The notes under the pieces are model-generated. The model worked only from the letters and a program-made list of their open reading frames with translations, was not told where the DNA came from and did not search any database. The position numbers and the translations under genes were made by a program. Of a stretch of 64,000 nt of DNA, positions 9,111 to 52,956 are shown piece after piece. Source of the stretch: Methanomassiliicoccales archaeon. GTDB taxonomy: Archaea; Thermoplasmatota; Thermoplasmata; Methanomassiliicoccales; UBA472. The DNA lies in assembly GCA_035527755.1 (NCBI GenBank), contig DATKZX010000026.1, positions 1-64,000 of the forward strand, read 5' to 3'. Within the stretch, counting starts at the first letter, position 1, and each line of letters begins with the position of its first letter.

Positions 9111-10154
9111 ATGGTGGGTGAGCTGGTAGGCGAGAGCGTGATCGTCGCCGACATGGCGGAAGGCAGCCAGATCTACAACAAGGGCTATTACGGATACCCT
9201 CGTGCCGGAGGGGGTCTGGAACTAGACCTGCTGGAGGCCTTGTATCTGGTGGAATGCGACAAGCTCAAGGTGGAGGTTGGAGGCAAGGATCTGGACCACG
9301 CCTCGCTGTATCGCCGAGTGGCCCGCTCTGTCGAAGGGCTGCAGCCCAATTACATCGTCTATCGTGACCTGAGGCAAAGGGGTTTCATCGTCAAGCTGGA
9401 CCAAGGCGAGTTCGATTTTCGTGTCTATTCCCGCGGCGACAACCCTCACAACTCCCAGGCCAAGAACTGGGTGCTAGCCATCTCTGAGAGGAGCATATTC
9501 AACATAGCCGCCCTGTTGGAGAAGAGCGAGACCTCGCAGCGAACGCGCAAGGACCTTCTACTAGGGGTAGTGGATGAGGAGGGGGACATCACCTACTATA
9601 CTGTGGAAGGTGCGGAACCGCACGGCCTAACGGAGGAGGCCATGACCTCGGCCGAAGGCTCCTTGATAGACGATGCGGTCATCGTGTTGGGGGAGGAGGC
9701 GGACCGTCTTTTCGAGAACGGTTACTACGGCAAGAAGATCGGCCCCATGCTTCAATTGTCCCTTTTGGAGACGGCCTATCTGATCGATAAAGGTCGTTTG
9801 GAGGTCCGCAACATACGTTCCGGTCAAAAGATGGGGGAGAAAGGTTTCCTAAGCACCGCTCGTCGCTCCCAGCCCGATTTCGCCATGCGCATGAGGGCAT
9901 ACCAGGACCTGCGCTCCCGTGGAATGGTGGTCAAGACCGGTTTCAAATACGGTACGCATTTCAGAGTGTATGAGGGGAATCCTTCCAAACATCACTCACG
10001 ATACCTGGTGCATGTGGTCCCGGATGATTATTCCACGGTCTGGGCCGAGATATCCAGGGCTGTCAGGCTAGCCCACGGGGTGAAGAAGGAGATTTTGTTC
10101 GCCAGTTCCGGGGAGTATCTCCGCTACGTCAAATTGACCAGGGTGCGACCTTAG
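9111..10154 (+). CDS. endA: tRNA-splicing endonuclease EndA (two-repeat form)
   Basis: About 347 residues with two EndA-type repeats: residues 5-150 (degenerate) and 185-345 (catalytic). The catalytic triad is visible in the second repeat: Tyr in 'HFRVYEG' near 286, His in 'KHHSRYLV' near 294, and Lys in 'VKKEILFA' near 323. The enzyme cuts introns from tRNA and rRNA precursors at bulge-helix-bulge motifs. Tandem-repeat forms of this length act as homodimers in Thermoplasma and Archaeoglobus. I chose the ATG at 9111; the upstream TTG at 9063 would overlap the TATA element. The window also has a tRNA-Lys gene with two introns, an obvious substrate. Confidence 0.93.
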   Translation: MVGELVGESVIVADMAEGSQIYNKGYYGYPRAGGGLELDLLEALYLVECDKLKVEVGGKDLDHASLYRRVARSVEGLQPNYIVYRDLRQRGFIVKLDQGEFDFRVYSRGDNPHNSQAKNWVLAISERSIFNIAALLEKSETSQRTRKDLLLGVVDEEGDITYYTVEGAEPHGLTEEAMTSAEGSLIDDAVIVLGEEADRLFENGYYGKKIGPMLQLSLLETAYLIDKGRLEVRNIRSGQKMGEKGFLSTARRSQPDFAMRMRAYQDLRSRGMVVKTGFKYGTHFRVYEGNPSKHHSRYLVHVVPDDYSTVWAEISRAVRLAHGVKKEILFASSGEYLRYVKLTRVRP

Positions 10155-32699: not shown

Positions 32700-33730
32700 A
32701 GTTTGCGGGCCAGGTCGCAGTAGAGGCGGTAGGCGCTCTCCAACTGGTACCTTTCCACGTACTCGTCCTTGGTGTGGGCCATGCCTGGGCTGCCAGGGCC
32801 GCACACGGCCACCAATGGGTTGATCGCTGAATAGACGGCCGCCTCGGTGGCATATGGTACGGTTGTAAGTTCACCGGCTCCACAGGCCAGCAGCTCTTGT
32901 ATCAAAGGGGTATCGGGAGAGGTCTCGAAGGCCGGCAGTTCGTACTGCATCACAATGTCGTAGGTCTCCCCCTCCAAGGTGCGCATGATCCTCTCACGGA
33001 CCTCCCTTGCCGTCAATGGGTAGGGGTAGCGGGCGTTTAGATGTGCTTCGCACCTCTCGGGCACTATGTTATTGCGCGTGCCCCCGTTGATGGTCGAGAC
33101 CACCAGGGTAAGATCATCAGTGGGACCTTTCGGCACCCTGAGCATGGGGGCCAGCCGGTCTAGCAGGTGGGTCATGTGCATGATGGCATTGTCACCCTTC
33201 CAAGGCATACTGGCATGGGCGGCGATGCCGTGCGCTGTCAAGGCCAATCTGGATACGCCCTTCTCCTTCCAGGCGACCCGCAGGTCGGTGGGCTCACCGA
33301 CCAGTATTCCTTTGGCCATCCTGACCTCCGGGCGTTTGGTCAGGAACTCCGCACCGGTCATCAGCTCCTCCTCGTCAGTGGTGATCAGCAGGTAGAACGG
33401 CACTCCCTCGTCCTTCAGGGTACGGGCGGCGGCCAGCATGGCGGTCGCTCCCCCCTTCATGTCCGCCGCTCCCAGTCCATAGATGCGCCCCGCTTCGACC
33501 TCACCGTCGTCCCTGGTCCACGCGTTCCCGGCAGAAACCGTGTCCAGGTGGGCCGAGAAGGCAATTCCGCCTTCGCCATGGGCGGCGACCAGGGCCGGGC
33601 TGTCCGGTACGCCTCCGGTGACGATACGCAGGTCCATTTCCTCCAACTTGGCCCGTACCAGCTCGAACAGTAACTTCTTTCCTTCGTTGGTATCACTCCG
33701 CAAGTGGAGAAGCTCGATCAGATCATGCAT
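32690..33730 (-). CDS. M20-family metallopeptidase (ArgE/DapE/CPG2 type)
   Basis: About 346 residues. The metal site is visible: His in 'FSAHLDTVSAGN' near residue 60, Asp in 'GLGAADMKGG' near 85, the base Glu-Glu in 'TTDEEELMTG', and a later Asp/Glu and His ('CGPGSPGMAHTKDEYV'). A dimerisation domain is inserted in the middle ('VSRLALTAHGIAAHASMPWKGDNA'). Substrate could be an N-acyl amino acid such as acetyl-ornithine/lysine or succinyl-diaminopimelate. ATG at 33730 follows the gcvT stop by 19 bases; TTG at 33745 is an alternative start. Confidence 0.9.
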   Translation of the reverse strand: MHDLIELLHLRSDTNEGKKLLFELVRAKLEEMDLRIVTGGVPDSPALVAAHGEGGIAFSAHLDTVSAGNAWTRDDGEVEAGRIYGLGAADMKGGATAMLAAARTLKDEGVPFYLLITTDEEELMTGAEFLTKRPEVRMAKGILVGEPTDLRVAWKEKGVSRLALTAHGIAAHASMPWKGDNAIMHMTHLLDRLAPMLRVPKGPTDDLTLVVSTINGGTRNNIVPERCEAHLNARYPYPLTAREVRERIMRTLEGETYDIVMQYELPAFETSPDTPLIQELLACGAGELTTVPYATEAAVYSAINPLVAVCGPGSPGMAHTKDEYVERYQLESAYRLYCDLARKLQG

Positions 33731-40221: not shown

Positions 40222-41325
40222 TTACTTTATGAAGTCGACCGTCATCCCCTTAGGCATGGCGGACTCCTTCGGTCCGAGTATGAACTTGGACTTGACACCA
40301 GTGACAACGACCATCACTCTCATCTTGTTTTCCAGAGCTGGGTCCACGGAAGCACCCCAGATGATCCTGGCGTTGGGGTTGACCTTGCCCTGGATTATCT
40401 CAGCTACTTTCTCGGCCTCGCTGACGGTCATGTCCTCGCCACCGACGACATTGATGAGCACCCCGTTCGCTCCGGTGATGTCCACATCGATAAGGGGGGA
40501 GTTGATCGCTTCGTCTATGGATTGCTCCACCTTGTCCTCGCCCTCGCCCTCTCCCATGCCGATCATGGCCACTCCACCGCTCTTCATGATGGTCTTGAGG
40601 TCATTGAAATCAAGGTTGACCAGTCCGGGACGGGTGATCAGCTCCGTTATGCCTTTGATGGCCCTAACAAGAACCTCATCCGCCACTTTGAAAGCGGCGT
40701 TAATGGAATAGCGAGGCACCAGGTCCAGGAGCTTATCGTTCGGGATCACGATCACCGTGTCGGCCACCGATCTCAGCCGTTCCATTCCCCACTCGGCGTT
40801 CTCGGCGCGTACGGAACCCTCGGCCTTGAAAGGGGAGGTGACAATAGCGATGGTCAGTGCCCCCATCTCCTTTGACATCTGCGCTATGTAAGGGGCGGCT
40901 CCAGTACCAGTTCCGCCACCGAGGCCTGCGGTCACGAAAACGATGTCCGCGCCAGTAAGTGACTTGCGTACATCCTCCTCCGCTTCTCGGGCTGCCTCTT
41001 CGCCCACCTGTGGGAGCGCTCCAGCGCCCAATCCTCTGGTGCTTCTCCTTCCCAGCAGGATCTTTTTATGAGCTCTAGTGATCAGTAGGTGCTGTGCGTC
41101 GGTGTTGGCGGCGAACAGTTCCGCATCCTTGATGTTGGTGGCGTACAGGCGGTCGATGGTGTTGGAACCACCACCTCCACAGCCGATGATTTTAATGTTG
41201 GTCCTCAGGCTCATCAAGATCTTTTCAAGTTCTTCGTCCTCAGCGGACGAAGCCTTGAAAGAAGGCGCGCTGATCGAGTTCGCCGGACCGGCTCGGGACA
41301 TAGCATCACTAATGAACGATTTCAT
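40222..41325 (-). CDS. ftsZ: Cell division protein FtsZ (paralog 1)
   Basis: A 367-residue tubulin homolog with the T1 loop '[15 protein letters not shown]', the signature '[17 protein letters not shown]' near residue 135 and the T7 catalytic loop '[13 protein letters not shown]'. It polymerises with GTP at the division site. The N-terminal 45 residues are a linker-like extension. The C-terminus 'MTVDFIK' resembles that of paralog 2 ('DLDFIR') and may be the short peptide that binds partners such as SepF. Position before secE is the classical archaeal ftsZ locus. Confidence 0.96.
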
Positions 41326-41856: not shown

Positions 41857-42978
41857 TTACCGGATAAAGTCCAGATCGGCCTTGCGCAGCTTCTCGGTGT
41901 CGTTGGGCGTTCCCAGGATCTGCTTGGACTTGACCCCGGCCACCACGACCATCACCCTGATGGTGTGCTCCAACGCCGGGTCTACGGCCGCACCCCAGAT
42001 TATCCTGGCGTTGGGGCTGACCCTCCTCTGCACTTCTTCAGCGATGAACTCGGCGTCCGAAATGGTCATGTCCTCTCCGCCTATGACATTGACAAGCACT
42101 CCGTTCGCTTCGGTTATATCCACTTCCAGCAAGGGAGAGCTCAAGGCGCGTTCGATGGCCTCCTTGGCCCGGTCCTCGGCATGACCATCGCTCTCTCCAA
42201 GTCCGATCATGGCAACCCCTGCTCCTTTCATTATCGTTCGGACATCGTTGAAGTCCAAGTTGACCAGGCCGGGTTTGGTGATAAGTTCGGTGATCCCTTT
42301 GATGGCCTTGGTAACGATCTCGTCCGCCACCTTGAATGCCTGATTTAGACCGAGGCGCGGGTAGAGCTCGATGAGCTTGTCGTTAGGTATGACTATTACT
42401 GTGTCGGCTGAGTTCCTCAGGCGCTGCAGTCCCCACTCGGCATTCTCCATGCGCATGCGCCCCTCGCCCTTGAAGGGGGTAGTGGTGACCGCGATGGTCA
42501 ACGCCCCCATCTCCCTGGCCATCCCGGCCACGACGGCGGCGGCCCCGGTTCCGGTGCCTCCGCCCATGCCGGCGGTGACAAAGACGATATGAGCATCGGC
42601 GACACCTTTCCTAATCTCTTCCTCAGCCTCTCTGGCTGACTGTTCCCCAACCTGTGGGAGCGCTCCAGCGCCCAATCCCCGGGTGCTCCTGCGGCCCAGT
42701 AGGATCTTGTGTTGCGCCCTGGCGGCCAACAAGTGCTGGGCATCTGTGTTGGCGGCGTAGGTCTCCACCCCGGAGATGTTCTCTTCGGAGATGCGGCTGA
42801 TGGTGTTCGAACCGCCTCCCCCCACGCCGAAGATCTTAATGTTCGTTTTCAGTTTCTGTAAAAGTTCTACCAGCTCAGCGTCCGTGGAATCCAACTGCTG
42901 GTATCCGAAATTCGGTGCGGCCTCCATCCTGACTGGGGCGGCTTCCTTCGCTAGAGCTTCCTCAACAAGTGATTTCAT
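41857..42978 (-). CDS. ftsZ: Cell division protein FtsZ (paralog 2)
   Basis: About 373 residues with '[14 protein letters not shown]', '[19 protein letters not shown]' near residue 138 and '[13 protein letters not shown]'. It is clearly related to paralog 1 along its whole length but differs at many positions, so the duplication is old. Many archaea carry FtsZ1 and FtsZ2 with separate roles in assembly and constriction. The C-terminal 'ADLDFIR' is kept. ATG at 42978 is chosen; upstream extension in the same frame enters non-coding AT-rich DNA. Promoter: TATA-like TTTAATATAAAG (minus strand, around 43032-43042). Confidence 0.95.
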
Positions 42979-43069
42979 CATCCATCCCTTCCTCTGGCCA
43001 CGGCCAAATATAGAGTTCTGCTCCCATATGATCTTTATATTAAATATTCTTGCTCCCCAGACTGACCGG

Positions 43070-43089
43070 GATAGATAATGATAGATAAT
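43070..43089. repeat. Tandem GATAGATAAT repeat
   Basis: Two exact 10-base copies next to each other in the gap between ftsZ paralog 2 and acylphosphatase, followed by a partial third (ATAGAT). They overlap the likely TATA region of the acylphosphatase gene. Confidence 0.6.
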
Positions 43090-43117
43090 TATAGATCCGA
43101 AATCTGATGATATCATC

Positions 43118-43390
43118 ATGGTGTACCGCGTCTCGGTCGTTTTCGAAGGAAGGGTCCAAGGGGTCTATTTCCGTCAATATGCGCGGCAATGGGCACAGGT
43201 GCTCTCCATCAGCGGTCATATCAAAAATATGCCCGATGGGACGGTCAACGCAGTTTTCGAAGGGCACCGTCAGGCGGTACAAGAACTGATCAGAAAGCTC
43301 AAGAACGAACACCCCAAAGCCGAGGTGATCCGGATGGACATCAAGGTGGAAGAGCCTGAGGGATTAGAGGGCTTTCAGGTCCTGCACTAG
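43118..43390 (+). CDS. acyP: Acylphosphatase
   Basis: A 90-residue protein with the acylphosphatase signature 'EGRVQGVYFRQYARQWA' (catalytic Arg in 'YFRQ') and 'GHIKNMPDGTVNAVFEG' with the conserved Asn. It hydrolyses carboxyl-phosphate bonds such as in carbamoyl phosphate or acyl phosphates. The TATA region lies about 25-30 bases before the ATG, so the mRNA is probably leaderless. Its end overlaps the convergent TatD-type gene by 4 bases. Confidence 0.95.
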   Translation: MVYRVSVVFEGRVQGVYFRQYARQWAQVLSISGHIKNMPDGTVNAVFEGHRQAVQELIRKLKNEHPKAEVIRMDIKVEEPEGLEGFQVLH

Positions 43391-45340: not shown

Positions 45341-46372
45341 ATGGGGTCGCGCTTCGAGGGGCTGGACGAGTCCGAGGTAGAGCTGCACGAGCTCAACATC
45401 CTGGTGGTCGGTTGTGGGGGAGGAGGATGCAATAGCATCACTCGTCTCAACCAGATCGGCATAGAGGCAGCTACGACGGTCGCCATCAATACCGACCAGA
45501 GGTCCCTCAAGGTCACGGAATGTCCCAATAGATTATTGATAGGCGCGGAGTACACCAAGGGTCTAGGTACCGGGGGTCGTCCTGATGTTGGCGAGGAATG
45601 CGCACTAAACGCATCGGTGCTCCTTTCCAAGATCTTCCAGGGAGTCGACCTGACGTTCATAATCACCGGTCTAGGTGGAGGTACTGGCACAGGCGCTTCC
45701 CCTGTGGTTGCCGACATTGCTAGACGATGCGGTTCAATGGTCATCACCATCGCCACCACTCCCTTCAGTTTCGAGGGCGCTACACGTCGAAATATCGCCC
45801 TGAAGGGGCTGAAGCGCCTCAGAGATGCGTCGAACAGCATGCTGGTGCTGGACAACGATCGTCTTCTGCACATGGTGGAAAACATACCGGTCGATCAGGG
45901 ACTGGCGGTGATCGACCAGCTGATCTCTGAACTGATCAAAGGTACCGTTGATGTCCTGACCTTGCCTTCGCTCATAAATCTAGACTTCGCCGACCTGCGC
46001 ACGATCATGGAGCAGGGTGGCGTGTCCACCATTCTCTACGGGGAGAACGCCGATCCAGAGGCCGTTGTCCGTGAAGCCATCGAAAATCCGTTGCTGGATG
46101 TGGACATTCGCGGTGGCACTGGTGCCCTGATCCACATAGCCGGAGGGAGCGGTCTGACCATGCGTCGTGCGAATCGCATCATCGCCAGCATCACCAAGGT
46201 CCTGGACGAGGATGCGACGATCAAGTTCGGGGTGCGCATGGAGGAGGAGATGGAGGGAAACATCCGAATGATCGCCATCATCACGGGAATCTCGGAGATG
46301 AGCGGTCCCTTCGCCCCCACGTTCGCTCCAGGGGACGATCTGGGAAAGGTACTGGGAAAGTACAGTCCGTGA
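45341..46372 (+). CDS. FtsZ-family protein, divergent third paralog
   Basis: A 343-residue FtsZ with intact GTPase loops: 'ILVVGCGGGGCNSIT', '[20 protein letters not shown]' near residue 108, and T7 'LINLDFADLRTIM' near 208. It should bind and hydrolyse GTP. It differs from the two other FtsZ copies in most positions and ends 'GKVLGKYSP', without their D-F-I-K/R tail. It also has a shorter N-terminus. The operon partner is a tandem RHH regulator. Its stop lies one base from that of convergent trmJ. Confidence 0.92.
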   Translation: MGSRFEGLDESEVELHELNILVVGCGGGGCNSITRLNQIGIEAATTVAINTDQRSLKVTECPNRLLIGAEYTKGLGTGGRPDVGEECALNASVLLSKIFQGVDLTFIITGLGGGTGTGASPVVADIARRCGSMVITIATTPFSFEGATRRNIALKGLKRLRDASNSMLVLDNDRLLHMVENIPVDQGLAVIDQLISELIKGTVDVLTLPSLINLDFADLRTIMEQGGVSTILYGENADPEAVVREAIENPLLDVDIRGGTGALIHIAGGSGLTMRRANRIIASITKVLDEDATIKFGVRMEEEMEGNIRMIAIITGISEMSGPFAPTFAPGDDLGKVLGKYSP

Positions 46373-52480: not shown

Positions 52481-52813
52481 AGGTCATCGCTTTGTGCAGG
52501 ATTATAGTCCTTATATATATACGTGATTCTAGAAAAAGGGTACGCGTCGAGTCCCTATCTGGGTCCCGAACAACCAGAAATCATTGGGTGATAGTAATAA
52601 GATCGCCGGCAATAAAATTTGTTATTATAATATATAATTAAGTTTTGCGCAAGTTCTTATACATTACTTTGATTATGGGGATATTAGTGGAATCATCCGG
52701 GAGGTCCAAGGCGATCGGCGTGCCTAAACGACCTCGATTCTGTGGTGGATGGGAAATCTTAAATAATACAAGGATTTACTCTCTCGTTCACACGCCGGCA
52801 CTTACTTACCAAT
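52481..52813. other. Intergenic region, promoters only
   Basis: No gene is seen in these 333 bases. The left side holds the TATA box of the zinc-ribbon gene. The middle (52610-52640) is very AT-rich (TTATTATAATATATAATTA). A TATA-like TTAAATAATA near 52760 probably drives the tRNA-Lys gene. I looked for box C/D or H/ACA RNA features and found none convincing. Confidence 0.5.
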
Positions 52814-52834
52814 GGGCCCGTAGCTCAGCTAGGT

Positions 52835-52863
52835 TGGGCCTTCGGTGACGAAGGTCCCTAGAG
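52835..52863 (+). other. tRNA-Lys intron 1 (D loop, position 20/21)
   Basis: 29 bases. The inner helix GGGCCTTCG/CGAAGGTCC (9 bp, one G-U) has loop GTGA. The central 4-bp helix CTAG/CTAG joins 52829-52832 to 52858-52861. The 3-base bulges are GTT (52833-52835) and AGA (52862-52864). Two bases (AG) separate the central helix from the D stem, so this is a slightly relaxed motif. Confidence 0.88.
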
Positions 52864-52902
52864 AGAGCATCTGGCTTTTAACCAGGTGGTCCGGGGTTCG
52901 AA

Positions 52903-52932
52903 AGGTACGCGGTAATTCCGTGTATGCGGAAA
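52903..52932 (+). other. tRNA-Lys intron 2 (T loop, position 59/60)
   Basis: 30 bases. The inner helix TACGCGG/CCGTGTA (7 bp, one G-U) has loop TAATT. The central helix TTCG/CGGA (one G-U) joins 52897-52900 to 52927-52930. The 3-base bulges are AAA (52901-52903) and AAT (52931-52933). The T stem serves directly as the outer helix, giving a full bulge-helix-bulge. Confidence 0.9.
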
Positions 52933-52956
52933 TCCCCGCGGGCCCGCTTGGGTAGG

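Follow-up and report, generated by a model that had tools for sequence, protein, structure and literature searches.

A tRNA-Lys(UUU) gene with D-loop and T-loop introns in a Methanomassiliicoccales archaeon, and the recurrence of its intron pattern across Thermoplasmatota

Can a lysine tRNA gene that is interrupted in both its D loop and its T loop, and left whole at 37/38, be a working gene, and how would its transcript be spliced? The question is raised by a locus in the window, which here means the whole stretch of 64,000 nucleotides that was analysed. The uncut locus gave no call with ARAGORN or Rfam RF00005, and ARAGORN still found no tRNA there when only one insertion was removed. With both insertions removed, the 74-nt product was called as tRNA-Lys(ttt), which bears out the sequence-only reading of this DNA as a tRNA-Lys(UUU) gene with D-loop and T-loop introns and none at 37/38. 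Its coordinates were right, as were the sizes and positions of the insertions (29 nt at 20/21 and 30 nt at 59/60). The locus is laid out as follows.

52758..52766 (+), TATA-box-like element CTTAAATAA, some 50 nt before the tRNA
52814-52946 (+), tRNA-Lys(UUU) gene, 133 nt in its interrupted form
52814..52834 (+), exon 1, nt 1-20: acceptor 5' strand, D stem 5' strand and AGCTAGGT
52835..52863 (+), D-loop intron at 20/21, 29 nt, TGGGCCTTCGGTGACGAAGGTCCCTAGAG; placed by the empty site in relatives (L171-L177) and by covariation
52864..52902 (+), exon 2, A21 to A59, with the anticodon loop CTTTTAA uninterrupted
52903..52932 (+), T-loop intron at 59/60, 30 nt, AGGTACGCGGTAATTCCGTGTATGCGGAAA; placed by its absence from an otherwise similar gene (L170) and by covariation
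52933..52946 (+), exon 3: T60, T stem 3' strand, acceptor 3' strand and discriminator G

Written out, the gene reads GGGCCCG TA GCTC AGCTAGGT [29 nt] A GAGC A TCTGG CTTTTAA CCAGG TGGTC CGGGG TTCGAA [30 nt] T CCCCG CGGGCCC G, without an encoded CCA. Orthologues within the order have a TTTAAATAA-like box at a similar upstream distance. Downstream, from 53330, lie RNA polymerase genes for subunits of 1201 and 929 aa. Elsewhere in the window, three FtsZ-like genes are clustered at 40222-41325 (-), 41857-43119 (-) and 45341-46372 (+).

The intron borders were read from relatives, 57 of 61 of which gave matches to the gene region. Exon-by-exon parsing within the order yielded 42 genes, 41 with both introns and one (L170) without the T intron, and in the latter TTCGAAT is present where the intron would sit. 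All 42 come to 74 nt after in-silico splicing, and the spliced products of 21 of them, the window's included, are identical. The introns themselves vary in sequence across the order and in length (29-37 nt for D, 29-33 nt for T). Orthologues of family f2, which is taken to be Methanomethylophilaceae because a Candidatus Methanoplasma genome also has a 74-nt gene, are intronless and carry the predicted joins AGCTAGGTA and TTCGAAT. The joins that had been proposed for the D loop and the T loop are thus matched by natural empty sites.

The gene is most likely the working one. Reading AAA requires a UUU anticodon, and 11 genes of the window use 66 AAA and 287 AAG codons. A second intact tRNA-Lys(UUU), named beforehand as the finding that would speak against a working gene, was sought in the host assembly (1.68 Mb, 26 contigs, 99.7% complete) and none was found; the tRNA-Lys(CUU) gene is the only intact one of the two lysine tRNAs. 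That standard tRNA finders miss the gene might suggest a decayed tRNA-Lys pseudogene with two insertions, AAA being read by another tRNA. We consider this very improbable, as 21 genomes share identical exons despite diverging introns, no other tRNA-Lys(UUU) turned up and the stems show compensatory changes. Both this reading and that of an assembly artefact were rejected on conservation. Judged from the compared sequences, the interrupted gene most likely encodes a real, conserved tRNA that is spliced.

Pairing in the proposed structure was assessed in a 38-sequence alignment, where 97.4% of the cells pair vs 34-50% when the partners are slid. Pairs changed on both sides number 14 vs 6.8 in shuffles, and 8 of the 14 lie in the intron stems. 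Phylum-wide, 101 of 106 genes show full pairing of the D intron's 4-bp central helix and use 13 sequence combinations for it, among them CTAG/CTAG, CCAG/CTGG, GTAG/CTAC, ATAG/CTAT and CCCG/CGGG; shuffling, which ignores relatedness, gives a mean of 75.8 and a maximum of 81. For the 4-bp central helix of the T intron, pairing is complete in 100 of 107 genes, and its exon side is nearly invariant. Shuffling of its 3' partners leaves 97 fully paired and gives the helix no support, which says little because T54-G57 hardly vary. The proposed T helix therefore has conservation and four genes with TCCG/CGGA in its favour.

Both central helices are as the sequence-only reading had them, but neither bulge-helix-bulge (BHB) motif is perfect. 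On the exon side of the D motif, A14-G15 stand opposite three bases, so that a 2x3 internal loop takes the place of a clean 3-nt bulge; in the T motif, a G-G mismatch adjoins the 5' bulge. Neither is a strict hBHBh' motif, which would have two 3-nt bulges and both outer helices directly next to the central helix, and they are relaxed, HBh'- and hBH-like forms.

The predicted ensemble prefers an alternative fold, with a probability of 0.07 for the D stem and 0.12 for the T central helix. The T-arm BHB lies only 0.9 kcal/mol above the local optimum, and the full cloverleaf-plus-BHB form reaches -65.1 vs -68.8 kcal/mol for the unconstrained fold. Dinucleotide shuffling gave a z of -5.2, which is weak evidence and was set aside because tRNAs fold well anyway. 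It had also been suggested that processing order matters, since neither the D arm nor the T arm could fold correctly until both introns are gone. This is too strong, for the introns leave room for both stems, and the T stem itself makes up the outer helix of its splicing target; the anatomy implies no fixed order of splicing. For an algal tRNA with three introns, those of the D and T arms are believed to be removed first (PMC9602550). Before splicing, only the D and T loops are blocked, and with them the elbow that their contact forms; the splicing endonuclease EndA would therefore be unable to rely on the mature elbow here.

The window also encodes the candidate splicing enzyme, in the only PF01974-domain gene of the genome.

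9111..10154 (+), EndA, tRNA-splicing endonuclease of 347 aa (ATG at 9111) with two fused PF01974 units

The catalytic Tyr, His and Lys occur in the C-terminal unit only, and Y288, H296 and K327 are invariant in 29 sequences, in which the N-terminal unit has no conserved His. The protein is 97% identical to EndA of a Methanomassiliicoccus sp. MAG, on which basis the host is placed in Methanomassiliicoccales, phylum Thermoplasmatota. A single-chain model (pLDDT 91) matches, over nearly its full length, both Archaeoglobus 2gjw/1r11 (TM 0.79-0.91) and the Methanopyrus fusion 5x89 (TM 0.86-0.89). By sequence and predicted fold, the enzyme is assigned to the alpha'2 type. RtcB is encoded by one gene on contig 2.

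The 11-residue specificity-loop stretch of A. pernix (Aeropyrum) is missing from this EndA, and no insertion at the CSL/ASL site occurs in the 29 aligned relatives, which places the enzyme outside the CSL/ASL class of broad-specificity EndAs, marked by a loop insertion with a conserved Lys beside the active site. Diversified introns are said to track special EndA loops (PMC6379350, PMC12397907), and the alpha'2 enzymes of Archaeoglobus and Thermoplasma are rated narrow (PMC6379350). As relaxed motifs have been linked to the CSL/ASL loop that this EndA lacks, and both motifs deviate from the strict BHB, the introns might be real and yet be removed by an additional or altered activity, such as a helper protein or a guide, and not by EndA alone. 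We regard this as improbable. There is one PF01974 gene only and RtcB is present; the Methanopyrus EndA, the closest solved enzyme, also lacks the CSL and is rated constrained-broad (PMC6379350, PMC12397907); and homodimeric EndAs are reported to be able to cut BHL-like motifs (PMC8707768).

Our preferred reading, which we hold with high confidence, is that of a working tRNA-Lys(UUU) gene spliced by an alpha'2-type EndA and RtcB, with introns that are probably old and were probably lost piecemeal. We infer the following route. The gene's own TATA-type promoter would drive a precursor holding the 133-nt interrupted tRNA. Pairing of T54-G57 with intron CGGA would extend the T stem into a local BHB-type target, and pairing of the D-loop CUAG with intron CUAG would form a second one. 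The homodimeric EndA would cut each target after the second bulge base, and RtcB would presumably join the exons into a 74-nt tRNA reading AAA codons. Counted against this reading are the ensemble's preference for another fold, and the rating of alpha'2 EndA as narrow (PMC6379350) together with the imperfect BHBs.

Other tRNA genes of the host genome (G000) are interrupted as well, at least four further introns lying outside 37/38. D-loop introns occur in tRNA-Ala(CGC) (L025), tRNA-Thr(CGU) (L028) and tRNA-Leu(CAA) (L039), those of Ala and Thr being strict hBHBh' motifs. tRNA-Arg(CCG) (L209/L215; contig 19, 98707-98797, -) has a 28-nt T-loop intron at 59/60 in which TTCG pairs with CGAA, and it was detected only via a sub-threshold RF00005 hit. 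Standard searches of this genome gave no tRNA for His, Cys, Gly(GCC), Leu(UAG), Pro(GGG/CGG) or Arg(GCG); these genes may also be interrupted, or lie in assembly gaps.

Two further loci were seen in the same genome. Near 32590 of contig 2 (L182), the 3' part of a tRNA-Leu(GAG) gene, with the intact copy some 850 bp away at 33437-33520, resembles an integration remnant. At 56600-56900 of contig 8 (L208) there is probably a tRNA-Trp whose long intron at 37/38 includes stretches resembling C/D boxes; a long intron with C/D-box sequences is a known feature of archaeal tRNA-Trp.

The distribution of the introns was assessed by covariance-model searches of 300 genomes of the class (Thermoplasmata), 28 chosen genomes and 194 of the phylum, after which the fetched genes were parsed. 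The parser chose the best-fitting cloverleaf and most families hold 1-4 genes, some of them mixed, so that single cases in the following list may be wrong (family labels are the search tool's own numbering). D and T introns occur together in the window's order (f1, f3-f6) and in f8, f10, f11, f13, f14, f15, f21, f24, f29 and f32. Eight families (f7, f16, f19, f23, f25, f27, f28, f31) have D, 37/38 and T introns. D and 37/38 introns are found in f26 and, in other classes, in f37, f50, f54 and f61. Only the D intron is present in f17, f41 and f57, only the T intron in f9, f35 and f58, and none in f2, f18, f22, f30 and f33. One three-intron tRNA-Lys(UUU) (L271, genome G132) reaches 291 nt, its T-loop intron having 145 nt vs the usual 30.

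Two non-canonical introns in one tRNA had been thought unusual for a euryarchaeote. The host is indeed a euryarchaeote in the wide sense, but the pattern is no one-genome oddity: it is spread over the phylum, with three introns in some families, and Methanopyrus and Methanothermobacter had already been listed as euryarchaea with multiple-intron tRNAs (PMC4033280).

This distribution is most simply read as presence in the ancestor followed by piecemeal loss. In the full form of this reading, the ancestor of Thermoplasmatota would have had a three-intron tRNA-Lys(UUU) (20/21, 37/38, 59/60), which most of the phylum would have kept in whole or in part, with splicing by a loop-free fused EndA. We put this forward tentatively, as not quite an even call. 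Repeated gain of the 20/21 and 59/60 introns by transfer between tRNA genes, as in Thermoproteales, would compete with the antiquity only and leave the splicing untouched. It has to be considered because introns sit at comparable places in further tRNAs of the host genome (T loop of Arg(CCG); D loop of Ala, Thr and Leu), and the tRNA-Lys(CUU) of a distant relative (L249, genome G070) carries a T-loop intron at 59/60. The patchy distribution also fits such gains. The same tRNA, positions and motif layout nevertheless recur in about 30 families, with partial states in which D, anticodon-loop and T introns are all present, D and T, D and anticodon-loop, D only, T only or none. We hold repeated gain to be possible but somewhat less likely than not.

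Multiple introns of this kind are already known; what is new is the combination of the lineage, the loop-free fused EndA and the phylum-wide recurrence in one isoacceptor. Non-canonical introns were described in 2011 as almost exclusively crenarchaeal (PMC3218864), and a review gives euryarchaeal tRNAs, mostly with alpha4 or alpha2 EndA, only single canonical introns (PMC4090602). In Thermoproteales, where multiple non-canonical tRNA introns are known (PMC8450103), Pyrobaculum and relatives likewise have BHB-type ones, up to three per tRNA (PMC8450103, PMC4033280). Their EndA is a heterotetrameric (alpha-beta)2 enzyme, typically with the crenarchaeal loop, whereas the one here is of the fused homodimeric type without a loop, and it is in a single isoacceptor that the pattern followed here recurs across the phylum.

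Methanopyrus kandleri and Methanothermobacter thermautotrophicus share multiple introns in a euryarchaeal tRNA, and the Methanopyrus EndA is the closest solved structure to that of the window, also without CSL; however, they are listed as single species (PMC4033280), and the Methanopyrus EndA consists of two separate subunits. The red alga Cyanidioschyzon merolae has a tRNA-Ile(UAU) in which BHB introns of the D, anticodon and T arms come together (PMC9602550), as they do in the tRNA-Lys of eight families here, but in a eukaryote and at 12/13, 37/38 and 53/54. Korarchaeum, with an alpha2 EndA, was said in 2014 to be the only archaeon with a homodimeric enzyme and non-canonical introns (PMC4033280); its EndA has a special loop, unlike that of the window. 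No description of the Thermoplasmatota pattern was found among open-licence papers.

One essential tRNA thus carries introns in its D, T and anticodon loops in a phylum with a loop-free fused EndA, against the rules given in reviews. If the ancestral reading is true, it would be an exception to the co-evolution of relaxed, non-canonical introns with the CSL/ASL loop, and one that went unnoticed because well-studied lineages (gut Methanomethylophilaceae and probably Thermoplasma) lost the introns. As natural states with three, two, one and no introns all occur, the co-evolution rule can be tested directly, and so can the order in which introns were gained or lost. Simple tRNA finders would miss tRNA-Lys(UUU) in many archaeal genomes.
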